Below are positions 2,431 through 33,317 of a DNA stretch of 46,646 nt, one piece after another. The stretch covers positions 1-46,646 of the forward strand of contig CAJXYJ010000006.1 in assembly GCA_913063255.1 (NCBI GenBank). The letters are read 5' to 3'. The notes beneath the pieces are model-generated. The model was not told where the DNA came from. It saw nothing but the letters and a program-made list of their open reading frames with translations, and searched no databases. The DNA is from an uncultured Flavobacteriales bacterium (GTDB lineage: Bacteria; Bacteroidota; Bacteroidia; Flavobacteriales; Flavobacteriaceae). Position numbers and translations under genes: made by a program. Every line of letters begins with the position of its first letter. The first letter of the stretch is position 1.

Positions 2431-2992
2431 TTTCTTAAAGAAATCATTACTTCTTCTATTTTTGGTTTTATTACCAATAATTACTAAAGCTCAACATAAA
2501 TTTGGGGTATTAGCTGGCGTTAATTTGTCGGCATTATCAGATGGTATATTAAATTCTACATATTTAGGAAGCAATTCTTTTAGTTTTCATATAGGTGGAG
2601 TTTATGAATTAGAGCTTAAAGAGAAAATTGCTTTTAGACCAAAAATTATTTATTCTCAACAAGGGGATCGAGAAACTTTTGATAGCAATATCAATTATGA
2701 GTTAACTTACTTAAATTTCCCACTTGATTTTAAATTTTTTCAGAAACCATACCTTATAGCTGGCCCACAAATTGGTTTTCTTATTGATACTAAAAAAAAT
2801 AGTGGTGATTTTGGCGACTTACCAATTTTTGATTATGGTGCAAATATTGGGATAGGATTTGACATTAAAGACTTTTTTATTGAATTTAATGCATATCAGG
2901 GATTTAACACATTAATTGAAATTGAATTTGCTTATGAGGATATTGAAGCAACTAACACAGTTTTACAATTAAGTTTTGGATACCATTTTTAA
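2423..2992 (+). CDS. PorT-like outer membrane beta-barrel protein
   Basis: 189 residues beginning with a signal peptide (MINFLKKSLLLLFLVLLPII, cleaved near TKAQ). The mature protein is a run of amphipathic strands that ends in LQLSFGYHF, a terminal aromatic as expected for an outer-membrane barrel. The opening HKFGVLAGVNLSAL is characteristic of the PorT/outer-membrane-beta-barrel family of Bacteroidota. The start at 2423 overlaps the stop of the lipoprotein by eight bases; an alternative ATG at 2408 would add five residues before the signal peptide. The pairing with a small lipoprotein suggests a shared envelope role. The true T9SS PorT is one member of this broad family, and nothing here says this is that one. 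Confidence 0.8.
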   Translation: MINFLKKSLLLLFLVLLPIITKAQHKFGVLAGVNLSALSDGILNSTYLGSNSFSFHIGGVYELELKEKIAFRPKIIYSQQGDRETFDSNINYELTYLNFPLDFKFFQKPYLIAGPQIGFLIDTKKNSGDFGDLPIFDYGANIGIGFDIKDFFIEFNAYQGFNTLIEIEFAYEDIEATNTVLQLSFGYHF

Positions 2993-3085
2993 ATAAAATA
3001 ATATTTAAAAATCAAAATACTTAGGCTCTCGATAGATGTTAGGTTTAAAAACTAATCATTATTTTTACACACTTAATACTAAATA

Positions 3086-11208: not shown

Positions 11209-14133
11209 TTATTTCACTATAACTCTTTCTGTTTTAAAAACAGATGCATCTTTACTTCCAACTTTTACGATATAAACACCACTCTCAGCATTTGATAAAT
11301 TAAGTTCCATTCTGTAAGAATCACCTATTTTATTTATGTTTTTATATCCTAATTGCTGTCCTAATAAATTATATAATGCTACATAAACATTCCCATCATA
11401 ATTAGATTTTAATGAAATAGAAAAGTTTTTGTTATCTGTAGAATAAACAAGCAATTCGGAATTATTGAATTCTAAATCATTAACTCCTAATTCACCCATA
11501 TTTGCAGTATAGTCTTCTGTTTCTCCATATTGAGATTCCTCACAAGCATCGTCTGGTACTGGAGCTTGCCAGTTTGATTTTACACGCATTCTGTGTTGTA
11601 TACCAGTTGTTTCATCTCCAGGAATTGTTAAATCAACCGTTTCTGTAAAAGTCCCACCTGCTTGTCCAGGAGCAATTACAAAATTAGGAACTACAACTTC
11701 ATCACTAGTAAAATTTGAATCATCGTTAAAATCAATCCAAACTTTTACGTTTTGATCTCCGTATCCAGTTGTAACTGTAAAATCATAAGTAGAACCAGGC
11801 ACTAAGGTTGCTTCTTGATCCGTAAAGTCTGCATATCCTTCACAACCTGAATCATTATCTAATTCTGCAACAGTAACGTTTGTAAATCCATCACCAAAAG
11901 AACAATCTGAATTAGGTTGACAAAGTAGATTCTCTATCTCAACAGTTATGGAATCATTAGAAGATTCTTGATCTCCCGCTAATAATGTAGTTACGACTAA
12001 TTCGTAAACTCCTAATTCAGAAAAATCTGCTTGTTGAGAAAAACTAAAAGAAACTTCTTCTTCTGAATCTATAGGACCTGCAAATGTTTCTACTACTGGA
12101 GTACCTCCATCTAAAATATATTGAACGTCGAAATTAGATTGTATAGCTGCACCAAAATTTATTAAGGTAACTGAAATTGTTTCGTTTCCTAATCCATTAC
12201 TACTTTCTGGAGCAGTTACTTCTAATGGACCTACATCGTTAGTTGCCAAATGGGTTACTTCTTTTGTAAATGCATCATTAGCTTCAAATTCGTCACCAGC
12301 TAAATCTGTACTTGCTTCAATAGCATAAGTTTGTCCAGAATTTGATAAATCTACAGTTTGAGTAAAGGTATAAGTGGCAGTATCATTACCAGCAATGCTT
12401 CCTCCAAATACTTCGGTAGCAACTAAATTGCCATCTACTCTTAACTCTACAGGTATATTAGATTGTGTAGCAGATCCAAAATTACGGATGCTAACCTCTA
12501 CTGTTTCAGTAGCAGTTAAAATTCCATTGTTTGGTTCCGTAATATTATTTATTCCTACATCTGCAGTAAACCCTCCACTTAATGAGAAAGAAGCTACTTG
12601 AGTTCTCCATTGGTTATTTGATGAAAAATATTCAGCGGTATGCCAGAAAGTAAAGTTATCTGGGTCCATGGTTAAATGTGAATAATCACCAAATCTATTG
12701 GTTGTAGTTTGTACTCCTACTCCATCAACAATAATTGTTTCCGCAATAGTCATTTCTCCTAAAGCATCTCCTTCAAAACGACCAGTATAGCTTATTCCAA
12801 CAGGCAAGGTAGCACTTGCTATGTTAAAGCCTAATCCAATATTTCCTGCTGCATCCATTGCTGCACTTCCCATAAAACGACTATGTCCATCTGCTGGAGC
12901 ATAGGTCCCTTCTTGGTAAACATCCCAAGGGTTAGCATCATCATTACGCAACTCTATCCATCTAATTCCAGATGTATCATTACCATCAATATCATCATTA
13001 AAAGTAATTACCCATGAGTTATGATCTCCAAAACTTCTGTAGTTAGCAGCGAAAGAAATAACACCACCAATCATATCTATTTTATTCCCAGTGCCTGGTT
13101 GTGCAACATCCCCTGTACCAAAAGGTGCAAAGACTGAGTTAAATGGATCTGTTGGAATTTCTAATGGTGCCGAGATTGTCGAATTTCCAGCATTCACAAA
13201 ATCTACATCAATCTCCCAAACTTTTAAATGATCAAAAGTTACACCACCCCAACCATCATCTTGAAGATATACTATATAACCTGGCACATCTGCAGGAGCA
13301 TCTGTTCCTAATAAATTAGCTGGTTCTGGGCTGTAAACAGTATTATTATTTGGAACAGATCCAGGCAATGGAAACCCAATAATTTGAGGATTTGCCCCTC
13401 CTGCTAAGATTACATCTCTTTCGATTGCATATACTTTATTTGCACCTCCTTTATTAGCAGTTAAATAATAAGCATCTGGCCAAACACTATAATGTGGGTA
13501 ATCTGGAAAGGCATCTAAAGAAAACTGATAAACATTATAAGCTCCTGTAGGATCATTAGTTACTGAAACTCCTAATGCTAATGAATTAGTTCCAAATGGG
13601 TCATCTCCAAATTCACTTACAAAATAACGATCCGCTAGATGATCATACATAATTATGGGATCACCCAAATTACCTGAAATCCCTAAAAAGGAAGCTAATG
13701 TTACTGGACCAGTTACCAAGGTCCCTGTCTTATCAAAAACTTTTATTTGTGAGTTTACAGCATGAACATAATGGTTTGGTCCAACAGCACCTGTAGGATC
13801 TGGTGGCGTAGGGCCTGTATTATCAAATCCAATAAAATTTTGTTCTAAAGCATAAGTATGAATTCCACCTTTTTCTTTTTGTGCATTTACATTAATGTCG
13901 TTTAATGGCAAAGCATTTTCATTTACTTTTGCATTATAACGAGATCTGTTAGGGACAATAGTCATTGTTTTAACTTCATCTGCATCATATGCAACTGTTG
14001 GAAGATCTCTTAATGGAATCGTGGTTCCAACAAAAGTTCCTTGAATTATTTCCACTGGAGGGAATAATTCTTGTGCAAAAATTCCGCAACTAAATAAAAT
14101 TGCGAAAGCGAGTAGTAAATTTTTAATTTTCAT
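11209..14133 (-). CDS. T9SS-exported multidomain protein with CARDB and GEVED domains, paralogue 1
   Basis: 974 residues. Signal peptide 1-20 (MKIKNLLLAFAILFSCGIFA). Residues of about 90-515 form a large N-terminal domain opening with DPTGAVGPNHYVHAVNS, which I recognise only as a recurring exoprotein type. Two CARDB-like adhesion repeats follow (VGINNITEPNNGILTATETV near 530 and VGPLEVTAPESSNGLGNETI near 637), then a GEVED domain (CEGYADFTDQEATLVPGS to GETEDYTANM, about 760-885), and finally a T9SS type A sorting domain ending GVYIVKVGSKDASVFKTERV. It is therefore secreted or anchored on the cell surface. Function is unknown; adhesion or binding of extracellular polymer is the usual guess. 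The tandem neighbour upstream has the same length and domain order. Confidence 0.88.
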   Translation of the reverse strand: MKIKNLLLAFAILFSCGIFAQELFPPVEIIQGTFVGTTIPLRDLPTVAYDADEVKTMTIVPNRSRYNAKVNENALPLNDINVNAQKEKGGIHTYALEQNFIGFDNTGPTPPDPTGAVGPNHYVHAVNSQIKVFDKTGTLVTGPVTLASFLGISGNLGDPIIMYDHLADRYFVSEFGDDPFGTNSLALGVSVTNDPTGAYNVYQFSLDAFPDYPHYSVWPDAYYLTANKGGANKVYAIERDVILAGGANPQIIGFPLPGSVPNNNTVYSPEPANLLGTDAPADVPGYIVYLQDDGWGGVTFDHLKVWEIDVDFVNAGNSTISAPLEIPTDPFNSVFAPFGTGDVAQPGTGNKIDMIGGVISFAANYRSFGDHNSWVITFNDDIDGNDTSGIRWIELRNDDANPWDVYQEGTYAPADGHSRFMGSAAMDAAGNIGLGFNIASATLPVGISYTGRFEGDALGEMTIAETIIVDGVGVQTTTNRFGDYSHLTMDPDNFTFWHTAEYFSSNNQWRTQVASFSLSGGFTADVGINNITEPNNGILTATETVEVSIRNFGSATQSNIPVELRVDGNLVATEVFGGSIAGNDTATYTFTQTVDLSNSGQTYAIEASTDLAGDEFEANDAFTKEVTHLATNDVGPLEVTAPESSNGLGNETISVTLINFGAAIQSNFDVQYILDGGTPVVETFAGPIDSEEEVSFSFSQQADFSELGVYELVVTTLLAGDQESSNDSITVEIENLLCQPNSDCSFGDGFTNVTVAELDNDSGCEGYADFTDQEATLVPGSTYDFTVTTGYGDQNVKVWIDFNDDSNFTSDEVVVPNFVIAPGQAGGTFTETVDLTIPGDETTGIQHRMRVKSNWQAPVPDDACEESQYGETEDYTANMGELGVNDLEFNNSELLVYSTDNKNFSISLKSNYDGNVYVALYNLLGQQLGYKNINKIGDSYRMELNLSNAESGVYIVKVGSKDASVFKTERVIVK

Positions 14134-14270: not shown

Positions 14271-17195
14271 TTATTTTACTATAATTCTAGCTGTTTTATA
14301 TGTTGTAGTTCCATGGCCTCCCATACGAAGAAAATAAACACCACCAGACATACTTGACATATCTATATCTACTTTATACACATTGTCATTTCTAGGAACT
14401 CTTTTATTAAAACCAACTTCTTGTCCTAAAATATTAAACACTCCTAAAAACACACCACCTTCATATTGAGTATTTAATATAACTTCAAATTGATTATTTG
14501 GTAAAGTAGTCACAATTAAATTAGAGTTACTAATCTCATAATCTTCTACACCCAAAGTACCGATATTTGCAGTATAATCTTCTGTTTCTCCAACTTGAGT
14601 GTTTTCACAAGCATCAATAACTGGTGCTTGCCAATTTGTTTTAACACGCATTCTATGCTCCCCAAGAGTAGCATCACTAGGAATTTCTAAATCTGTTGTT
14701 TCTGTATAAGAACCAGCTCCTTCTCCTTCAGCAATTCTAAAATTATTTACAACCACTTCACCAGGAAATTCAAAAATATTATCATCATTAAAATCTATAA
14801 ATACAGTTATCCATTGATCTCCAAAACCTGTAGTTAATGTTAGATCGTTTGTTGAACCTGGTTCTAAATTAGCAATTTGACTTGTAAAATCAGCGTATCC
14901 TTCACATCCAGAAGGGTTATTGATTTCAGCAACACTGAATAATTGAAGTCCATGACCTAAAGAACAATCGGGTGCTGGTTGGCATAGAAGATTTTCAACT
15001 ACTTTAGTAACCTCATCATCCGCATTATTTTGATCGCCTGAAAGCGAAGTGGATACACTAAAATTATAAACTCCCAACTCACTTAAATCAGCAGTTTGTG
15101 CAAAATTAAATACTATTGTTTCTTCAGAAGTAATTGGTCCTGCAAAACTTTCTATTATAGGACTCCCTCCATTAATGCTGTATTGAACATCAAAATTTGA
15201 CTGCGTAGAAGTACCATAGTTTTTAATTTTAACAGAAATTTCTTCATCTGCTGTTAAAGATGATCCTGTTATAGGACTTATTATAGCTATAGCTCCCACA
15301 TTATTGCCTAATAAATGGGTAACTTCTTTAGTATAATCGTCATTTGGAATAAATTCGTCACCTCCTAAATCTGTTGTAACAGCAATTTCATAGGTATCTC
15401 CAGCATTAGATAAATTTACAGTTTGAGAAAAGGTATAGGTTGCAGTTTCATTTGGATTTATAGTACCATTATAAGTCTCTGATGCTACTAAATTCCCATC
15501 TAATCTTAATTCTAAAGGAATATTAGATTGTGGATCAGAACCAAAATTACGGATATTAACCTCTACAGATTCAGCATTAGTTAATACCCCATTGATTGGT
15601 TCTAAAATATTAACAATCCCTACATCATCTGTAAATTCACCATTAATTGAAAAGGAAGCTACACGAGTTCTCCAAAAGTTGTTAGACGAAAAATAATCTG
15701 CTGTATACCAAAAAGTAAAATTATTTGGGTCCATCGTCATATGTGCATAATCTCCATATCTATTCGCATTTGTTCTTACACCAGGGCCATTAATAATTAC
15801 GGTTTCACCAAGTGTCATTTGTCCAAGTGGATCTCCGTCAAAACGCCCAGTATATCTTAATGAAACTGCTAATGAGGTACTCGCTGTAGTATATGCCAAA
15901 GCTATATTACCTGTTGCATCTATTGCAGAACTACTCATTAAACGACTATGACCATCCGCAATAGAATACGTTCCTTCTTGATAAATTTCCCAAGGATTAA
16001 CCTCATCGTTTCTTAATTCAATCCAACGAATTCCTCCGGTTTCATTTTCATCAATAAATGTATTAAATGTTATTAACCATGAATTATGGTTTTCAAAAGA
16101 TCTAAAATTTGCTGCGTATGAAACAATTCCTCCATGTCCAGAAAGTCTTTGACTCGTTCCTGGCTGATGAATAGCGCCATTACCATTACCAAAAATCTCT
16201 CCTGCATCAAATGGTTCTGTTGGAATTTCTAAGGCTTCTGAAACTGTAGAATTATTTACATTTGTCCAATCCATATTGATTTCCCAAACTTTTATATGAT
16301 CAAAATCAACACCACTCCACGCATCATCTTCTAAATAGGTTACGTAACCCGGCATAGATGGATCAATAGTAGTTCCTAAAAGATTTGCTGGTTCTGCGCT
16401 TTTTACTTGACTAGGGTTATATCTAATTCCTGGAAGTGAAAAAATTACCATTTCTGGATTTGCTCCACCCGCTAACATTACATCTCTTTCCATAACAAAG
16501 GTATGGCCACCTGTTCCAATTAAATTTACAGTTCCATAATAGCCATCATGCCACGTTGCATAATGTGGATAATCTGGAAAACCACCAGGATAGGTAAAAT
16601 CCCATACATTATATGAACCTGTTGGGTCATTAGTTTCAGAAACTCCAATAGACAGCGTGTTAGTTCCAGCTCCAAATTCACTTACCACCCATCTGTCTGC
16701 AAGTTGATCGTATAAAACGATTGGATCCCCATTATTAGAACCATTACCTAAAAAAGATGCTAAACTAACTGGTCCCAATAATAATCCTCCAGTTTTATTA
16801 AAAATTTTAATTGCTGAATTTACAGAATGAACATAATGGTTTGGTCCTACTGCACCAGTAGGATCTGGTGGAATATATCCTCCAGATTCATTCGCTGAAA
16901 AACCAACGAAATTTTGTTCCATTGCATATGCAGCAATTTTCCCTGTTTCAGTCTGTAGATTTTGAATTACAGTAGTTGTTGTGTTTTCTTCTGGTGTAAC
17001 ATTCGCCATATTAGGGAACATTATTACTTCCTCAGGATTATAATTGTTGGGATTAATAGTCTGAAAATCTCTTAGAGGAATTGTTAAGCCTTTATAGGTT
17101 CCTGTAATTACATCCATAGGTGGAAATAATTCTTGGGCAAAAATTCCGCAACTAAATAAAATTGCGAAAGCGAGTAGTAAATTTTTAAGTTTCAT
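14271..17195 (-). CDS. T9SS-exported multidomain protein with CARDB and GEVED domains, paralogue 2
   Basis: 974 residues, in tandem with paralogue 1 and sharing its whole domain order: signal peptide (MKLKNLLLAFAILFSCGIFA), a DPTGAVGPNHYVHSVNS N-terminal domain, two CARDB-like repeats, a GEVED domain (CEGYADFTSQIANLEPGS) and a type A sorting domain ending GVYFLRMGGHGTTTYKTARI. The mature proteins differ at many positions, but the signal-peptide DNA is almost identical between the two genes. The insert ENTTTTVIQNL near residue 70 replaces a different linker in paralogue 1. It is surface-exposed or released; its role is unknown. It diverges from purL across a 146-bp gap. A tandem duplication is the simplest origin. 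Confidence 0.88.
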   Translation of the reverse strand: MKLKNLLLAFAILFSCGIFAQELFPPMDVITGTYKGLTIPLRDFQTINPNNYNPEEVIMFPNMANVTPEENTTTTVIQNLQTETGKIAAYAMEQNFVGFSANESGGYIPPDPTGAVGPNHYVHSVNSAIKIFNKTGGLLLGPVSLASFLGNGSNNGDPIVLYDQLADRWVVSEFGAGTNTLSIGVSETNDPTGSYNVWDFTYPGGFPDYPHYATWHDGYYGTVNLIGTGGHTFVMERDVMLAGGANPEMVIFSLPGIRYNPSQVKSAEPANLLGTTIDPSMPGYVTYLEDDAWSGVDFDHIKVWEINMDWTNVNNSTVSEALEIPTEPFDAGEIFGNGNGAIHQPGTSQRLSGHGGIVSYAANFRSFENHNSWLITFNTFIDENETGGIRWIELRNDEVNPWEIYQEGTYSIADGHSRLMSSSAIDATGNIALAYTTASTSLAVSLRYTGRFDGDPLGQMTLGETVIINGPGVRTNANRYGDYAHMTMDPNNFTFWYTADYFSSNNFWRTRVASFSINGEFTDDVGIVNILEPINGVLTNAESVEVNIRNFGSDPQSNIPLELRLDGNLVASETYNGTINPNETATYTFSQTVNLSNAGDTYEIAVTTDLGGDEFIPNDDYTKEVTHLLGNNVGAIAIISPITGSSLTADEEISVKIKNYGTSTQSNFDVQYSINGGSPIIESFAGPITSEETIVFNFAQTADLSELGVYNFSVSTSLSGDQNNADDEVTKVVENLLCQPAPDCSLGHGLQLFSVAEINNPSGCEGYADFTSQIANLEPGSTNDLTLTTGFGDQWITVFIDFNDDNIFEFPGEVVVNNFRIAEGEGAGSYTETTDLEIPSDATLGEHRMRVKTNWQAPVIDACENTQVGETEDYTANIGTLGVEDYEISNSNLIVTTLPNNQFEVILNTQYEGGVFLGVFNILGQEVGFNKRVPRNDNVYKVDIDMSSMSGGVYFLRMGGHGTTTYKTARIIVK

Positions 17196-17341: not shown

Positions 17342-20300
17342 ATGATTCACTTTTTTGGAGACCTAAAAAAAACAGTTTTTATAGTTCAAACCAACGCTAC
17401 GCTTTCCAAGCCAGACATTAAAAAGTTACAGTGGTTATTCGCAGACCAAGCCAAAATTGAAGAATCCGTTATCACGGATTTTTTTGTTGGTCCTCGTGCT
17501 GCTATGATTACACCTTGGAGTACCAATGCTGTTGAAATTACCCAAAACATGGGGATTGAAGGGATTATTCGTATTGAAGAATTTAAACATGTTTCTGAAA
17601 CTTTTTCAGATTTTGATCCGATGCTTTCTCAAAAATATTCGAGCTTAGGTCAAAATGTGTTTAATATTGACATTCAACCTGAATCTATTTTAGAAATCGA
17701 TGACATTTCTGCATACAACCAATCTGAAGGTTTAGCTTTAAACCATGAAGAAGTAGCTTATTTAGAGAACCTTTCTAAAAAGTTAAATCGGAAATTAACA
17801 GACAGTGAAGTCTTTGGTTTTAGCCAAGTAAATAGTGAGCATTGTCGTCATAAAATATTCAACGGTACTTTTATTATTGATGGAGAAGAAAAGCCCTCTT
17901 CTCTTTTCAAATTAATTAAAGAAACCTCTAAAGAAAATCCGAATACAATTGTTTCCGCATACAAAGATAATGTAGCCTTTGTGGAGGGACCTAATGTGGT
18001 TCAGTTTGCTCCAAAAAGCCCAGATAAACCAGATTATTACGAAAATAAAGACTTTGATAGTGTAATTTCACTTAAGGCAGAAACCCATAACTTTCCAACA
18101 ACAGTTGAACCATTTAATGGTGCTGCTACAGGAAGTGGTGGAGAAATTAGAGATCGCCTTGCAGGAGGAATGGGGTCTCTCCCTCTAGCAGGTACCGCTG
18201 TTTATATGACTTCTTATTCTAGGGTAGAAGAAAATCGTCCTTGGGAACAAGCAATGAACGAACGAGATTGGTTATACCAAACTCCATTAGATATTTTAAT
18301 AAAAGCCAGTAATGGGGCTTCAGATTTTGGAAACAAATTTGGTCAACCATTAATTTGTGGTTCTGTATTGACTTTCGAACATGAAGATCAAACACGTAAA
18401 TTAGGGTTTGATAAAGTTATCATGCAAGCTGGTGGAATTGGTTATGGGAAGAAAGAACAAGCCATAAAAGATATCCCAAAAAAAGGAGATAAAATTGTAA
18501 TTCTAGGAGGTGAAAATTATAGAATTGGTATGGGTGGTGCTGCAGTTTCCTCTGCAGATACTGGAGCATTTGCTTCAGGTATAGAATTAAATGCGGTACA
18601 ACGTTCCAATCCAGAAATGCAAAAACGTGCAGCTAACGCTGTTCGTGGAATGGTAGAAAGTGAAGAAAATTTTATTGTTTCAATTCACGATCACGGTGCT
18701 GGTGGACATTTAAATTGTTTATCGGAATTGGTGGAAGACACCGGAGGAAAAATTGATTTAGATCAACTTCCTGTTGGTGATCCAACCCTATCTGATAAAG
18801 AAATTATTGGTAACGAATCTCAGGAACGTATGGGATTAGTTATAGCCGAAGAGCACATTGATTATTTACAACGTATTGCAGATCGTGAACGTTCTCCTAT
18901 GTATACAGTTGGTAATGTTACTGGAGATCATAGATTTTCTTTCCAATCCAAAACCAAAGGCAACAAGCCAATGGATCTAGCATTGGAAGATATGTTTGGA
19001 AGTTCTCCAAAAACAATAATGACAGATTCTACTATCAAAAGAACGTTTAAGGAGATTGTTTATGACACTTCAAAATTCAAAGAATATTTAAATCAAGTAC
19101 TACAATTAGAAGCTGTTGCTTGTAAAGATTGGTTAACCAATAAAGTAGATCGTTGTGTTGGTGGAAAAGTAGCCAAACAACAATGTGTTGGTCCTTTACA
19201 AATCCCTCTTAATAATTGTGGAGTAATGGCATTAGATTATAAGGGTAAAGAAGGAGTTGCAACTTCTATTGGTCACTCTCCTATTAGTGGTTTAATCGAC
19301 CCTATTGCTGGAAGTAGAAATAGTATCACCGAAGCTTTAACCAATTTGGTTTGGGCGCCATTAGAGGAAGGTTTAAAAAATGTTTCCTTATCTGCAAATT
19401 GGATGTGGCCTTGTAAAAATGAAGGAGAAGATGCGCGTTTGTATGAAGCAGTTCAAGCGATATCAAAATTTGCAATCGATTTAGGTATCAATGTTCCTAC
19501 TGGAAAAGATTCCTTATCCATGAAGCAAAAATATCCTAATGATGAAGTAATCTCTCCAGGAACAGTAATTATTTCAGCAGTTGGAAATTGTAATGATATT
19601 ACCAAGATTGTTGAACCAGTTTTTCAGAAAAATGGAGGAAGTATTTATTATATCAATATTTCTCAAGACACTTATAAATTAGGTGGAAGTTCATTTGCTC
19701 AAATTCTTACAAGAATAGGAAACGAAGCTCCAAATGTATTAGATGCAAGCTATGTTAAAACTGTTTTTAATACCCTTCAGGAATTAATTAAAGAAAATAG
19801 AATTAGTGCTGGTCACGATGTTGCTTCTGGTGGATTAATTACCACTTTATTAGAGATGTGTTTTGCAGACAATAATCTTGGAGCAGATTTAGATCTTAGC
19901 AGTTTAGAGGAACAAGATTCTATTAAATTATTATTTGCTGAAAATTCAGGTATTGTTATTCAAGCTACAGATGATTCTATAGAAGAAACTTTAACTGAGG
20001 CAAATATTAAATTCCACAAAATTGGAAAAGTTACCGATAATGAAGTATTAAACATCACAAATCAATCGGAAACATTTGCATTATCTGTTACCCAATTAAG
20101 AGATACTTGGTACAATACTTCTTATTTATTAGACCAAAAACAAACTGCAGGTAATTTAGCGGTAGATAGGTTTAATAATTATAAAAATCAACCCTTACAA
20201 TTCACATTCCCTAGTCAATTTACAGGAAAACTACCCGTCTTTGCGAATGAAATGAAGCAATCTCCTGAGATTGCCACGTCGCAAACTCCTCGCAATGACA

Positions 20301-21049
20301 AAAGACCTAAAGCAGCTATCATTCGTGAAAAAGGTTCTAATTCTGAACGTGAAATGGCTAACGCTATGTACTTGGCAGGCTTTGATGTAAAAGATGTACA
20401 TATGACCGATTTAATATCGGGTCGAGAAACTCTTGAAGACATTCAGTTTATAGGAGCCGTTGGTGGTTTTAGTAATTCAGATGTTTTGGGATCTGCAAAA
20501 GGATGGGCTGGTGCTTTTCTCTATAATGAAAAAGCCAATACTGCCTTGAAAAATTTCTTTAAAAGAGAAGATACACTATCAGTTGGAATTTGTAATGGAT
20601 GTCAACTTTGGATGGAATTAGAACTCATCAATCCAGAACATGAAATTCATGGTAAATTAACTTATAACGATTCTGGAAAACACGAAAGCGCATTTACTTC
20701 AGTAAAAATTCAAGAGAATAATTCTGTAATGCTTTCTAGTTTAGCTGGAAATACATTAGGGGTTTGGATATCTCATGGAGAAGGTAAATTTAATTTACCC
20801 TTAACAGAAGATAAATATAATATTGTAGCAAAATATGGATATGACACTTATCCTTCTAATCCGAATGGTTCAGATTTTAACACTGCAATGCTTTGTGATA
20901 AAACGGGACGTCATTTAGTAATGATGCCACATATAGAACGTTCTACTTTTCAATGGAATTGGGCTAATTATCCAGACCATAGAACCGATGAAGTATCTCC
21001 TTGGCTAGAAGCCTTTGTAAATGCTAAAAAGTGGTTAGAGAACAAATAA
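17342..21049 (+). CDS. purL: Phosphoribosylformylglycinamidine synthase (single-chain PurL)
   Basis: 1235 residues, the large single-chain form. It converts FGAR, ATP and glutamine to FGAM in de novo purine synthesis. The synthetase part contains SQVNSEHCRHKIFNG near residue 160 and LKAETHNFPTTVEPFNGAA near 243, the ATP-binding features of the family, repeated at lower similarity in the second half. The C-terminal glutaminase begins at AAIIREKGSNSERE (about 990) with the nucleophile region GICNGCQLW near 1082-1090 and the catalytic MPHIERSTFQWNW near 1197-1209. Residues 966-986 are encoded by a 63-bp palindromic repeat-like insert between the two parts and match nothing conserved in the family. 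The reading frame is intact, so the enzyme is probably active. Confidence 0.95.
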   Translation: MIHFFGDLKKTVFIVQTNATLSKPDIKKLQWLFADQAKIEESVITDFFVGPRAAMITPWSTNAVEITQNMGIEGIIRIEEFKHVSETFSDFDPMLSQKYSSLGQNVFNIDIQPESILEIDDISAYNQSEGLALNHEEVAYLENLSKKLNRKLTDSEVFGFSQVNSEHCRHKIFNGTFIIDGEEKPSSLFKLIKETSKENPNTIVSAYKDNVAFVEGPNVVQFAPKSPDKPDYYENKDFDSVISLKAETHNFPTTVEPFNGAATGSGGEIRDRLAGGMGSLPLAGTAVYMTSYSRVEENRPWEQAMNERDWLYQTPLDILIKASNGASDFGNKFGQPLICGSVLTFEHEDQTRKLGFDKVIMQAGGIGYGKKEQAIKDIPKKGDKIVILGGENYRIGMGGAAVSSADTGAFASGIELNAVQRSNPEMQKRAANAVRGMVESEENFIVSIHDHGAGGHLNCLSELVEDTGGKIDLDQLPVGDPTLSDKEIIGNESQERMGLVIAEEHIDYLQRIADRERSPMYTVGNVTGDHRFSFQSKTKGNKPMDLALEDMFGSSPKTIMTDSTIKRTFKEIVYDTSKFKEYLNQVLQLEAVACKDWLTNKVDRCVGGKVAKQQCVGPLQIPLNNCGVMALDYKGKEGVATSIGHSPISGLIDPIAGSRNSITEALTNLVWAPLEEGLKNVSLSANWMWPCKNEGEDARLYEAVQAISKFAIDLGINVPTGKDSLSMKQKYPNDEVISPGTVIISAVGNCNDITKIVEPVFQKNGGSIYYINISQDTYKLGGSSFAQILTRIGNEAPNVLDASYVKTVFNTLQELIKENRISAGHDVASGGLITTLLEMCFADNNLGADLDLSSLEEQDSIKLLFAENSGIVIQATDDSIEETLTEANIKFHKIGKVTDNEVLNITNQSETFALSVTQLRDTWYNTSYLLDQKQTAGNLAVDRFNNYKNQPLQFTFPSQFTGKLPVFANEMKQSPEIATSQTPRNDKRPKAAIIREKGSNSEREMANAMYLAGFDVKDVHMTDLISGRETLEDIQFIGAVGGFSNSDVLGSAKGWAGAFLYNEKANTALKNFFKREDTLSVGICNGCQLWMELELINPEHEIHGKLTYNDSGKHESAFTSVKIQENNSVMLSSLAGNTLGVWISHGEGKFNLPLTEDKYNIVAKYGYDTYPSNPNGSDFNTAMLCDKTGRHLVMMPHIERSTFQWNWANYPDHRTDEVSPWLEAFVNAKKWLENK
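20237..20299 (+). repeat. Dispersed palindromic repeat inserted in frame in purL
   Basis: The 63-bp segment starts GTCTTTGCGA and ends TCGCAATGAC, inverted copies with one mismatch. Inside, GCAATCTC (20257-20264) and GAGATTGC (20267-20274) form a second perfect inverted repeat. The ends and GAGATTGCCACGTCGC resemble the dispersed intergenic repeats of the GTCATTGCGAGG...GCAATCTC type that I recall from many Bacteroidota genomes. It occupies exactly 21 codons (966-986), starting and ending on codon boundaries, and encodes VFANEMKQSPEIATSQTPRN plus D. The arms between the two stems do not pair (10 against 15 bases). Confidence 0.75.
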
Positions 21050-25626: not shown

Positions 25627-25866
25627 ATGCCCATAAAAAGCTATTTAGCTCACCCTGTTGATGGTAAAAAAAATGCACTTATACTCGCATTAAATGCTTT
25701 AGACAATTGTGAGGTAATCCCTTCTGAAAATGAAGAATTACTTATTGTCTTAACCGATACTCTTACCATAGAAGAAGATAAAAGTTTAAAAGAAACAATA
25801 GATGCTTTAGACAGTCTGAAAATGATTTCTTTAGTATCTGGATTTAATACACCAAAAACCAATTAA
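25627..25866 (+). CDS. napD: NapD-like assembly chaperone for nitrate reductase
   Basis: 79 residues, the size of NapD. NapD binds the Tat signal of NapA and holds back export until the molybdenum cofactor is inserted. The pattern of strands and helices (SYLAHPVDGKK, then ALNALDNCEVIPSENEELL and IVLTDTLTIEEDKSLKETID) fits the ferredoxin-like fold of the family, and the IDALDSLKMISLVSGF end resembles the closing strand in which NapD proteins commonly have a V-S-hydrophobic pattern. Similarity is weak by eye, so the identity leans on size and on the napA gene one base downstream. It is the first gene of the six-gene cluster. Confidence 0.75.
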   Translation: MPIKSYLAHPVDGKKNALILALNALDNCEVIPSENEELLIVLTDTLTIEEDKSLKETIDALDSLKMISLVSGFNTPKTN

Positions 25867-25867
25867 T

Positions 25868-28210
25868 ATGCAAAGCACCCTATCCAACAGCGTTCTTTCA
25901 AGTAGACGAAGTTTTATAAAAAAAATGGCTGCCGCTGCTGCAATGACAGCTGCTGCAACTATGTTTCCCGGAATTATATTTGCAAGCGAGCAAGAATCTA
26001 ACATTCCAAACGGAGCTAATTTAGATTGGAAAAAAGGGCCTTGCCGTTTCTGTGGTGTTGGCTGTGGAATATTAGTTGGTGTTGAAGACGGCAAAGCTGT
26101 TGCCGTTAAAGGAGATCCAAATTCTAGTGTAAACAAAGGTCTTCTTTGTGTAAAAGGATACCATCAAATTATGTGTATTGAAGCAAAAGATAGATTAACA
26201 CATGCATTGGTAAAAAAGAATGGTGTATATGTAGAAACTCCTATAAATGAAGCATTGGATTTAGTTGCCAGTAAAATGAAACAAACCATGGAACAACATG
26301 GTAAAGATTCAGTAGCAATGTATACCTCTGGGCAATCTACCATCCCTGAAGGTTATGTAGCTTCAAAACTTATGAAAGGAGCAATAGGTACTAATAATTT
26401 AGATTGTAATGCTCGTTTATGTATGGCAAGTGCTGTAACCGGGTTTTTAACCTCCTTTGGTGCTGACGAACCTATGGGTTGTTATGAAGATATAGATTAC
26501 GCAGATTATTTTATCACATGGGGAAATAATATGGCTGAAATGCATCCTGTTTTATTTTCAAGAATGTTAGAACAAAAAAACAGAAGAGGTGCTAAGATTA
26601 TAGATTTCGCAACCAGAACATCTCGTTCTAGTATGGCATCTAATAAATCTATCTTATTTGAACCACAAACCGATTTAGCAATAGCAAATGCAATTTGTTA
26701 CGAAATCATCAATAATGGTTGGGTAAATAAATCATTTGTAGAAAAACATTGTAATTTCACTAAAGGACTTACCAATATAGGTTATGGTCTAGAAGATAAA
26801 TTTAATTTTAAAGATGAAGCAACGGGCATTTCCTTTGAAGAATACAAAGTCTTTTTAGAAGATTACACTCCAGAAAAAGTTGCCAAATACTCTAAAGTAT
26901 CTGTATTAGATATTAAGTATTTAGCAAATATATATGGCGATCCAAACAAAAAAGTTGTTTCTTATTGGTGTATGGGAATGAACCAACATACCCGAGGAAC
27001 CTGGATGAATAACTTGGTATATAATATTCATTTACTTACTGGAAAAATATCACAACCCGGCAACGGCCCCTTTTCTTTAACGGGACAACCTTCTGCTTGT
27101 GGAACAGCTCGTGAAGTAGGTACCTTTACTCATAAATTACCAAAAGGTGTTGTAATGAATGCCAAGCATAGAGAGTTAGCTGCAAAAATTTGGAAAGTAC
27201 CGGTAGAGAATATTCCATCAAAACCAACGTATCATGCTACCGAAATGTTTAGAGCGGTAGATAGAGGGGATATCAAGTTTATATGGACACAAGTAACTAA
27301 CCCTTTAGTTTCCTTACCCAAAACCAGTAGGTATCGTCCAGCAATGGAAAAAGATTCTTGTTTTGTGGTTGTTTCAGATGTGTTTCCAACTCCTACTTCA
27401 GATGTAGCAGATGTTATATTACCTGCATCTTGGCATATTGAAAAAGGTGGGTTATATGGAAATTCAGAAAGAAGAACTCAATATTGGGAAAAAATGGTGG
27501 AAGGCCCTGGAGAAACAACCGATGATGCCTGGATGACTATTGAAGTCGCAAAACGTATGGGTTATGGGGATTTATTTCCATATTCTAAAGAAGGGCACGT
27601 AGAAGAAATTTATAATGAATACAAACAGTTTCACGAAGGTGCAAAACACGGTATGGCTCCACTTGAAGTTTTAAAAGAAGAATCGGGAGCAATATGGCCT
27701 TATGTAGATGGTAAATCTACCCAATGGCGTTTTAATGCAGAATATGACCCTGCTTGTAGCAATGGTGAAGATTTCCATTTTTATGGAAAACCAGATGGGA
27801 AAGCAGTTATTTGGCAACGTCCTTATGAACCAGCCCCTGAGATTCCAGATTCTGAATATCCATTTTGGTTAAATACAGGGCGTGTAATTGAGCATTGGCA
27901 TACTGGTTCTATGACTCGTAGAATACCTGTGTTGCATAAAGCAATGCCTCACGCTTATGTTGAACTTCATCCAGAAGATGCAAAAAAATATGGGCTAAGT
28001 AATGGAGACCAAGTTAAAGTGACCTCTCGTAGAGGCTCTTGTACTTTACCCGCTTCAATTAACGAAAGAGGATTACCTACTATTGGTCAAGTTTTTGTTC
28101 CGTTTTTTGATGAGAATATGATGATTAACGATGTAACATTAGATGCTTTTTGTCCGATTTCTAAGGAACCAGATTATAAGAAGTGTGCCGTTAACATAGA
28201 AAAGGTATAA
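25868..28210 (+). CDS. napA: Periplasmic nitrate reductase catalytic subunit
   Basis: 780 residues, slightly shorter than the E. coli enzyme. A Tat signal is clear: SRRSFIKK at about 12-19, then an alanine-rich stretch cleaved near IIFAS. The 4Fe-4S cluster is bound by Cys59, Cys62, Cys66 and Cys94, with Lys96 in the electron-transfer position. The molybdenum ligand is Cys185 in CNARLCMASAV. DEPMGCYEDID and the C-terminal NTGRVIEHWHTGSMTRR bind the cofactor. The enzyme reduces nitrate to nitrite in the periplasm. Electrons should come from the NapB-like and tetrahaem cytochromes encoded next. No nitrite reductase gene is in the window. Confidence 0.95.
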   Translation: MQSTLSNSVLSSRRSFIKKMAAAAAMTAAATMFPGIIFASEQESNIPNGANLDWKKGPCRFCGVGCGILVGVEDGKAVAVKGDPNSSVNKGLLCVKGYHQIMCIEAKDRLTHALVKKNGVYVETPINEALDLVASKMKQTMEQHGKDSVAMYTSGQSTIPEGYVASKLMKGAIGTNNLDCNARLCMASAVTGFLTSFGADEPMGCYEDIDYADYFITWGNNMAEMHPVLFSRMLEQKNRRGAKIIDFATRTSRSSMASNKSILFEPQTDLAIANAICYEIINNGWVNKSFVEKHCNFTKGLTNIGYGLEDKFNFKDEATGISFEEYKVFLEDYTPEKVAKYSKVSVLDIKYLANIYGDPNKKVVSYWCMGMNQHTRGTWMNNLVYNIHLLTGKISQPGNGPFSLTGQPSACGTAREVGTFTHKLPKGVVMNAKHRELAAKIWKVPVENIPSKPTYHATEMFRAVDRGDIKFIWTQVTNPLVSLPKTSRYRPAMEKDSCFVVVSDVFPTPTSDVADVILPASWHIEKGGLYGNSERRTQYWEKMVEGPGETTDDAWMTIEVAKRMGYGDLFPYSKEGHVEEIYNEYKQFHEGAKHGMAPLEVLKEESGAIWPYVDGKSTQWRFNAEYDPACSNGEDFHFYGKPDGKAVIWQRPYEPAPEIPDSEYPFWLNTGRVIEHWHTGSMTRRIPVLHKAMPHAYVELHPEDAKKYGLSNGDQVKVTSRRGSCTLPASINERGLPTIGQVFVPFFDENMMINDVTLDAFCPISKEPDYKKCAVNIEKV

Positions 28211-31958: not shown

Positions 31959-33317
31959 TTATTTTTTTATTATTTGGTAAACACTACTATTATTTCCATC
32001 TGTAATTCTAACTAAATAATTCCCCGAACTAAATTCAGAAATATCTATTTGTTCTTTAGTACTATTTGTCTTAACATTTAATAATGTTTGACCTAGAGTA
32101 TTCATTATCGTAATGGATGATATATTGAATTCGCTTACCACAGTAAAAGCATCAGTACTAGGGTTTGGGTAAAGTATAAGATTATTAGTATGGTTTTCTG
32201 AAATAGAAAGAGAACAGTCTTCAATTAATTGCACTCCTGCTGGTATTTCTAAAAAATATTCTTCTGCAAACGGAATGCTATCTACACAGATATACTCTAA
32301 GTTATTTGATTGATAAAGATATACACTACCGGGAATAATATAACCAACGTGTGCTGATTGTACATGGCAAGTATTATCAGGTTGAAAAAATGTATTATTC
32401 CCATTCCTAAGATTAATATATTCCAATGTCTCTGAATTACCTCCATCTACTCTACAAAGGTGATCATTATTTGATAAATCTATTGAAGCTGAAATAGTAC
32501 CTGAAAAATCAATCCATTGTAAATCTTCAAGCATAGAAACATCTAACTCTTGAATAGTTGTATTAGAAAAATCTAAAAATCTAATTTCAGCATTTGAAGA
32601 AATATCTAATGAGGAAACATTAGTGGATCCAATAATTAAAAAAATTAATTGAGAATTATTTTGAATATTTACTTCAGTTAAGTTTGTTGAATAAGCAGAA
32701 AAATATTCTAAAATTATATTGCTTGTTAAATCTACTTCAGTAATATTAGTATAATCAAGTTCGAGTGTTTTAAGTGAAACTAAATTACTTACATCAATCG
32801 TATTTATTTCCGTATTACTAATACGTATTAGCTCTAAATTATTATTGTTCTCTAAATCTAATTCCTGTATTAATGTGTCATCAAAACTGATCCTCAACAG
32901 ATTATGATTATTCGGTATGTTTATTTCGCTAATATCATTATTTCCACAAAAAAAATATTCCAAATTTAGATTCTGGTTAACATCAATATTTTCTAAATTG
33001 TTATTCGAACAAGACAATACTTTTAATAATGGTAGAGAAGAAGGGTCAATAACAGAAATTTCATTGTTTGCACAGATAAGAGTTTCCAAATTATTAAAAG
33101 CCTCTATACCAGTTAAGTCATTTATATTACTCGCAAAAACATTCATGTAAATAGTAGCTTCAGCTTCACTAAATTGTATTTCGCCATCATTGTTAGTATC
33201 TATTGTTGGATCATGATTTAGTAAGGAATCTTTAAAGTTTGAATCAGGAAAATTTACTATTTGAGCATATGTAAAAGAAGTCAAAAGTAATAGAGTAAAA
33301 ACAAGGAGGCATTTCAT
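31959..33317 (-). CDS. Leucine-rich repeat T9SS protein
   Basis: 452 residues from the ATG at 33317 (signal MKCLLVFTLLLLTSFTYAQ); an ATG nine bases upstream would add MEN. After the signal, FPDSNFKDSLLN and an acidic calcium-loop-like DTNNDGEIQFSEAE lead into about ten leucine-rich repeats of the N-L-x-x-I/L-D/E-x-x-x-N type. The C-terminus (LILYPNPSTDAFTVVSE to YLVRITDGNNSSVYQIIKK) is a T9SS type A sorting domain. It is a surface or secreted binding protein of a kind abundant in flavobacteria; its ligand is unknown. It converges with the nap operon at a 36-base gap with no strong terminator. A -7 box TATATTTG lies at 33349-33342. Confidence 0.87.
   Translation of the reverse strand: MKCLLVFTLLLLTSFTYAQIVNFPDSNFKDSLLNHDPTIDTNNDGEIQFSEAEATIYMNVFASNINDLTGIEAFNNLETLICANNEISVIDPSSLPLLKVLSCSNNNLENIDVNQNLNLEYFFCGNNDISEINIPNNHNLLRISFDDTLIQELDLENNNNLELIRISNTEINTIDVSNLVSLKTLELDYTNITEVDLTSNIILEYFSAYSTNLTEVNIQNNSQLIFLIIGSTNVSSLDISSNAEIRFLDFSNTTIQELDVSMLEDLQWIDFSGTISASIDLSNNDHLCRVDGGNSETLEYINLRNGNNTFFQPDNTCHVQSAHVGYIIPGSVYLYQSNNLEYICVDSIPFAEEYFLEIPAGVQLIEDCSLSISENHTNNLILYPNPSTDAFTVVSEFNISSITIMNTLGQTLLNVKTNSTKEQIDISEFSSGNYLVRITDGNNSSVYQIIKK

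Follow-up and report, generated by a model that had tools for sequence, protein, structure and literature searches.

Protein-coding palindromes are known chiefly from Rickettsia and from scattered intragenic REPs. The relevant passages of one paper (Di Nocera et al. 2013, PMC3733652) describe many Rickettsia palindromic elements (RPEs) as lying in frame within open reading frames (ORFs) that likely encode functional proteins, and raise the possibility that inserts are neutral where they fall in flexible linkers or loops. According to the same passages, CGTC repeats occur in Bacteroidetes, G. forsetii among them, and several species have REPs inside genes. As defined in that text, the CGTC-tagged REP unit has a stem of 8-9 bp, a loop of 4-5 nt and a three-base tail that is mostly CCA, and in these passages no transposase association is reported for CGTC-tagged REPs.

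Here, we analyzed a stretch of 46,646 nt (the window) in which a 63-bp palindromic, REP-like element, termed type A, lies in frame inside purL. The original prediction likened the element to RPEs, and this likeness has held, since an in-frame palindrome is found as the same element in unrelated proteins (here PurL, GltX, Mfd and one further protein). Like RPEs, type A is a dispersed palindrome with an open frame within the element, and it lies in frame inside protein genes. The likeness is one of arrangement and not of compared sequences, the element here measures 63-75 bp, and the host is not Rickettsia but Flavobacteriaceae, as judged from the closest named PurL relatives (the best 80 of 585). 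With the CGTC-tagged REPs, type A shares a C (10 copies) or T (2 copies) before GTC in 12 of the 12 coding copies listed, an inverted pair with the tags outside (a head-head dimer) in the copies read here, and intragenic occurrence, which PMC3733652 also describes. However, its unit as read from the sequence has a stem of about 5 bp (about ATTGC/GCAAT) with a long loop, and it ends in CTC, CTG or similar instead of mostly CCA; compared with the class by its text description, the element falls outside strict membership. The GTAG REP/RAYT system, as outlined in the same source, also comprises short dispersed palindromes, dimers and some intragenic copies, but the present element ends in GTC/GAC, another tag, and no match to Y1_Tnp (PF01797), the only transposase family sought, was obtained in the source genome, which is 81% complete. 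By analogy with the systems as outlined there, the element appears to work like RPEs and intragenic REPs. Screened by title and the opening of the abstract, the open-licence literature yielded no account of protein-coding repeats in PurL or in Flavobacteriia, nor of repeat-coded loops in PurL, GltX or Mfd of Flavobacteriaceae, and a word search of that literature for the letters of the repeat returned nothing related by title.

Results

An in-frame palindrome at the domain boundary of PurL

The purL gene is intact and is the sole match in the source genome (a draft of 236 contigs, 81% complete), and its product scores 1484 bits against the NCBIfam PRK05297 cut-off of 783; the enzyme is accordingly presumed to be functional. 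The features of the locus are listed in Table 1. The codons occupied by the element contain no stop, and its predicted positions and arms were all recovered. As read from the sequence, 9 of 10 positions pair between the outer ends and 8 of 8 between the inner arms. Folded as RNA, the segment reached -19.9 kcal/mol with a z-score of -4.26, and none of 200 shuffles was equally good; two other purL stretches used as controls gave z-scores of -1.12 and 0.16. Rfam gave no match at the gathering threshold in 20000-20600.

Table 1 Features of the purL locus in the window.
Feature	Position	Strand	Basis
purL, FGAM synthase (phosphoribosylformylglycinamidine synthase), 1235 aa, host gene of the repeat	17342-21049	+	ORF, NCBIfam/Pfam
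Type-A palindromic REP-like element, 63 bp, codons 966-986, peptide VFANEMKQSPEIATSQTPRND	20237-20299	+	sequence, genome copies, fold
Outer left arm GTCTTTGCGA; with the preceding C included, begins with tag CGTC	20237-20246	+	sequence
Inner left arm GCAATCTC	20257-20264	+	sequence
Centre between inner arms, CT	20265-20266	.	sequence
Inner right arm GAGATTGC	20267-20274	+	sequence
Outer right arm TCGCAATGAC	20290-20299	+	sequence
Putative recombination tract; G016 (L023) unusually different directly 3' of the element	20300-20359	+	purL alignment
GATase_5 glutaminase domain, residues 988-1232	20303-21037	+	Pfam

The element ends directly before the start of the glutaminase domain, which places it between this domain and the synthetase part, as had been proposed. 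In an AlphaFold2 model of residues 750-1235 (mean pLDDT 77.2, pTM 0.74), which matches FGAM synthetases (6jt9: Z 30.0, rmsd 9.3, 452 aligned), residues 968-985 have a pLDDT below 50; residues 782-792 and 1043-1049 also fall below this value, so that low confidence is not peculiar to the insert. On this model, a flexible linker is the best description of the insert.

Dispersed copies in the source genome and the genus

Using the 63-bp segment as query, the best other copy in the source genome was found with an E-value of 6.9e-7. A 64-nt consensus (E<=0.01) gave 21 rows corresponding to 20 distinct places, with a best other E-value of 6e-10; 19 of these places lie outside purL, spread over 8 other contigs, and none of the 19 is inside an ORF of at least 100 aa, although one partly overlaps a 333-aa open frame at its edge. 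The element had been taken for a dispersed intergenic repeat, and its distribution bears this out. Within the window, no second copy was found with as many as 3 mismatches allowed over 21 bases. Contig C9 of the source genome (G000) carries two dense type-A clusters, at 25704-26557 and 33019-33253, comprising ten places together and lying outside any ORF of at least 100 aa.

Among the 19 same-genus genomes, the consensus matched eight, the source genome counted. Fifty genus loci were fetched, and four of them lie inside ORFs of at least 100 aa; all four represent two purL copies, that of the source genome (three loci) and that of G013 (one locus). An ORF at L167 was rejected as a gene because it reads as a translated repeat cluster.

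The PurL linker in relatives

About ten residues of the form K-K/L-P-x-I-D-x-S-K-P make up the ordinary linker in the named PurL loci (the best 80 of 585). Close relatives had been expected to lack the element, and this is largely the case: the linker is without type A in 15 of 17 same-genus PurL, in 79 of the 80 named PurL and in 45 of the 48 PurL that were readable in a sample of the order. Linkers were readable in 17 of the 19 genus genomes, the fragments of G006 and G009 ending short of the linker. The order sample comprised 246 genomes, 108 of them with a match; 61 stretches were fetched and 13 were unreadable by the motif, which leaves 48 including the source genome, and the sample partly repeats named genomes (L192 is L073, and L200 is L083).

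The two same-genus carriers are the source genome and G013, whose PurL (78% identical) has VFASETKQSHEITASQTPRND at the same linker place. Algibacter onchidii XY-114 (L044) is the sole carrier among the 80 named PurL, and the linker of L092 may hold a type-A remnant; the linkers of several more named PurL contain DNA resembling other palindromic repeats. In the order sample, type A was found in the source genome, G117 and G167, and motifs of another family (B, described below) were found in three genomes, one of which is a named genome again. Together with the five PurL obtained by a peptide search (source genome included), the copies of G013, L044, G117 and G167 bring type A to the PurL of nine species. 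Type A is therefore not unique to the source PurL; it occurs in the PurL of eight other species and, elsewhere, in GltX and Mfd. When the PurL copies were compared, the element exceeded both flanks in similarity in 11 of 15 pairs (75-90% vs 65-86%), a weaker contrast than that in GltX (below). The G013 copy folds with a z-score of -3.90; the copies of the source genome, G013 and L044 form a single hairpin, and those of G117 and G167 fold otherwise.

Type A in GltX, Mfd and a further protein

A 22-aa consensus of the type-A peptide, built from coding copies, was searched against 397 family genomes and gave 11 matches in 10 genomes, every one in a stop-free open frame (354-1272 aa). Five are in PurL (source genome included), three in GltX, two in Mfd stretches that are partial and score below the family cut-off, and one in a 483-aa protein. 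This last protein (G472, L290, 709-2157) carries the element in frame, appears membrane-like by eye and has no Pfam match.

In GltX, the element is 93-96% identical among three genera, with 60-bp flanks at 56-78%. In the sole Mfd pair, the element is 74% identical and the flanks 67 and 80%, so that the element is not more alike there. GltX of G304 provides a clean empty site: when 69 nt are removed from the G478 gene (G034 and G478 are the same genome), the two are of equal length and 121 of 147 bases are equal. The empty site reads AAT GAC, which corresponds to the last six bases of the type-A element. Comparison of 15 GltX genes gave three with type A, one with another insert (G320) and 11 with none; AATGAC was present at the site in one of these 11, namely G304, the nearest match to a filled site. 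The insert in G320 (L292) is a different palindrome, ATTTCTCCCGCTGGTAGAAATGAC, ending in AGAAATGAC, at the place that type A occupies in other genera.

The six coding type-A copies that were found without a frame-specific query are all a multiple of three in length and free of stops, against 3 of 12 copies outside genes. All six share one orientation and one frame; this could be explained by survival of the polar frame, or it could mean common descent. In the source copy, the frame used is polar, and the three reverse frames are open and more hydrophobic or cysteine-bearing, as read from the sequence.

Other repeat families in the same loops

At least three further repeat families (B, C and D) occupy the same PurL linker in other species, with copies elsewhere in the same genome. 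Five genomes with an exact linker insert of family B, TCGAGCGNAGTCGAGA, carry 41, 47, 50, 27 and 7 copies outside purL; a genome with a decayed insert carries 4, the median of 20 others is 3.5, and three of these 20, without a B linker insert, are still B-rich (42, 57 and 59 copies). For family C, TTCGACAAGCTCAG, the genomes with a C linker have 18, 36 and 1 further copies against a median of 1 in 24 others; the insert of the first is one base off the motif, and the 1 further copy of the exact motif is in the L114 genome. For family D, TCCGCTCRGYRACC, the corresponding numbers are 7, 8, 0, 2 and 1 against a median of 0 in 25 others, two of which carry 8 and 14 copies; the D inserts of G007 and G035 are without the exact D motif. 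The D insert of Aequorivita (L102) was rejected as a confirmed case, as it has 0 further exact copies and looks like a local duplication. Reversed motif patterns of the three families gave no match. Family copies were more numerous where the linker holds B, C or D (one-sided Mann-Whitney p 0.029, 0.025 and 0.0037, respectively), with small groups and inserts typed partly by eye or by a short motif. The genomes counted were picked for their linkers, together with five ordinary ones (L095, L099, L108, L047 and L100), and the C and D counts also include same-genus genomes. Four further types, E to H, were distinguished by eye, with one or two loci behind each. Some B inserts preserve the ancestral linker length and are replacements, not insertions.

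In 92 full PurL genes, five motif sets matched 15 times, in 13 genes, within the linkers (4,755 nt in all) and 11 times within the other 332,919 nt; per base, the density in the linker is about 95-fold that of the remaining purL, a count that is partly circular because the motifs were chosen partly from linkers. Of the 11 non-linker matches, 10 are at residues 19, 295-297 or 349-350, and residues around 295 and 350 are likewise variable loops with repeat-like DNA in several species. In a control against 445 kb of flanking DNA, which has little power, 6 of 80 linkers and 25 of 1,600 segments reached at least 32 bits, and 18 of 80 and 307 of 1,600, respectively, reached at least 28 bits.

Individual PurL genes carry further inserts. 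Near residue 350 of L115, an in-frame insert of 42 residues consists of three near-identical repeat units and another repeat. Near residue 845 of L098, an insert contains a CAGCCCCCGAAGGGGGAG palindrome with the peptide QPPKGEQ, and the linker of L211 holds the similar-looking SFPKGEGR; the two are perhaps another repeat family read as protein.

Family B was also found inside ORFs in 8 of 62 copies, sampled non-randomly from four genomes. These putative insertions are in HemW, Mfd, a ketoacyl synthase, LeuS, a GSCFA protein, an FAD monooxygenase (near the end), MetH and ArgS; Flagellimonas alvinocaridis is a carrier of family B in LeuS and HemW. Mfd carries type A in two genomes and family B in a third, apparently in the same region as judged by eye.

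Comparison with the nearest relative and the PurL tree

The PurL of G016 is 94% identical to that of the source genome, and its linker lacks the element and reads QIDASRP. The two purL genes are about 0.9 identical throughout, except for 0.62 in alignment block 2970-3060, which takes in the 3' part of the insert together with the bases that follow. Over the 57 bases after the linker, the best other match among 153 rows is 47/57 for G016 and 53/57 for the source genome. The odd tract thus belongs to G016, which may have lost the element by recombination. As an example of clean insertion, the pair was rejected, since it differs over the linker and about 57 bp downstream; judged from the alignment, it appears to reflect allele replacement. 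The proposal that a repeat was inserted into purL is supported by both checks suggested for it, further copies in the genome and absence from most relatives read; the nearest relative without the element gives no clean empty site, and none was seen in PurL.

On a PurL tree of 103 rows built with the linker omitted, 21 labelled tips need 21 changes, compared with a mean of 20.7 and a least value of 18 for shuffled labels. This fits a rapid turnover of linker inserts, with the sampling sparse and the small-type labels tentative; G011 is present twice (L035 and L042) with a misread linker, and the doubtful inserts L026, L097 and L117 were left unlabelled. The PurL of the source genome and G016 (L022/L023) lie outside the clade of most same-genus PurL (L024-L036), and it is possible that their purL was acquired by horizontal transfer.

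Discussion

The explanation that we favor, with a probability of roughly 0.84, is that dispersed REP-like palindromes keep arriving and that copies coding for a polar, stop-free peptide survive in permissive loops. It builds on the sequence of the element, its dispersal, its reading frame, its recurrence in several genes and families, and the one clean empty site in GltX. Repeat copies would arrive genome-wide, type A being one of several such families in Flavobacteriaceae, and a type-A copy would have inserted in frame into the flexible stretch of purL that links the synthetase and glutaminase parts, where it is presumably translated as a polar peptide of 21 residues. Insertion itself would be broad, and purifying selection would retain only in-frame polar copies: to persist in coding DNA, a copy would need a length divisible by three, a stop-free and hydrophilic frame, and a position in a loop that tolerates it. 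The linker of PurL, its loops around residues 295 and 350, and loops in GltX and Mfd have been filled more than once and may be tolerant positions of this kind, the inserts there being probably tolerated rather than beneficial. Recombination may then spread or erase alleles, as the single case of G016 suggests.

Among the alternatives, the one to be taken most seriously, although we still consider it doubtful, is that homologous recombination with a Flavobacteriaceae purL allele already carrying the element brought it into this gene, with no transposition at this locus. A tract boundary at the linker, with about 0.9 identity on both sides of the divergent block, and the position of the source and G016 PurL outside the clade of most same-genus PurL are what this would produce; however, the unusual tract is that of G016, where loss fits equally well, and no donor with the exact flank of the source genome was present among the 153 rows. 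Rather unlikely is a single ancient insertion of type A in PurL that was passed on by vertical descent and has since disappeared from most lineages. The linkers that hold the copies of L044, G117 and G167 are all 96 nt long and resemble one another in sequence, the source genome and G013 share the GTCTTTGCGA and CGCAAACTCC variants, the orientation and frame are common to all type-A PurL copies, and the divergence of element and flanks differs little in some PurL pairs. Nevertheless, unrelated families at the same place require several events in any case, the changes needed on the PurL tree are like those of shuffled labels, and the GltX elements are far more alike than their flanks.

It is improbable that the insert was selected for a function, such as tuning of the enzyme by a lengthened linker or a slowing of translation by an mRNA hairpin at the domain boundary, even though a strong hairpin lies exactly at this boundary and the same loops are occupied again and again, because most relatives that were read do without the insert, the loop sequences are very variable, and inserts are also found in loops inside PurL domains. 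A chance palindrome in an ordinary linker, or an artefact of assembly, might be considered for a fragmented and incomplete draft genome, but it is refuted by other copies with E-values of 7e-7 to 6e-10, by the fold z-score, and by the same element type in the PurL of Algibacter onchidii XY-114, and its probability is negligible.

Beyond frame selection and tolerant loops, a more specific and unlikely extension is that several families enter the same PurL, GltX and Mfd loops by a site-directed process, with a resident GTCATT/AATGAC, the end of the repeat itself, as the target, so that these loops would be true integration hot spots. GltX of G304 is the one case in which insertion may have taken place beside a motif of this kind already present, suggesting a target that contains the tag (C/T)GTC or its complement beforehand; the lack of AATGAC in the other ten uninserted GltX genes makes this reading less likely. 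If the site-directed process operates, new protein loops would continually be supplied by the palindromes of Flavobacteriaceae. Across several genera of this family, the same core-enzyme loops are used by several repeat families and are available as filled, empty and differently filled alleles, with one clean empty/filled pair in GltX. With such alleles, it becomes directly testable how repeat-born protein sequence is inserted, is selected for frame and decays.

Beside purL, the window also carries two adjoining 974-aa proteins on the minus strand (11209-14133 and 14271-17195) with CARDB and GEVED matches. The two are 57% identical and represent a tandem duplication, and a secretion sorting tail was detected in one of them.
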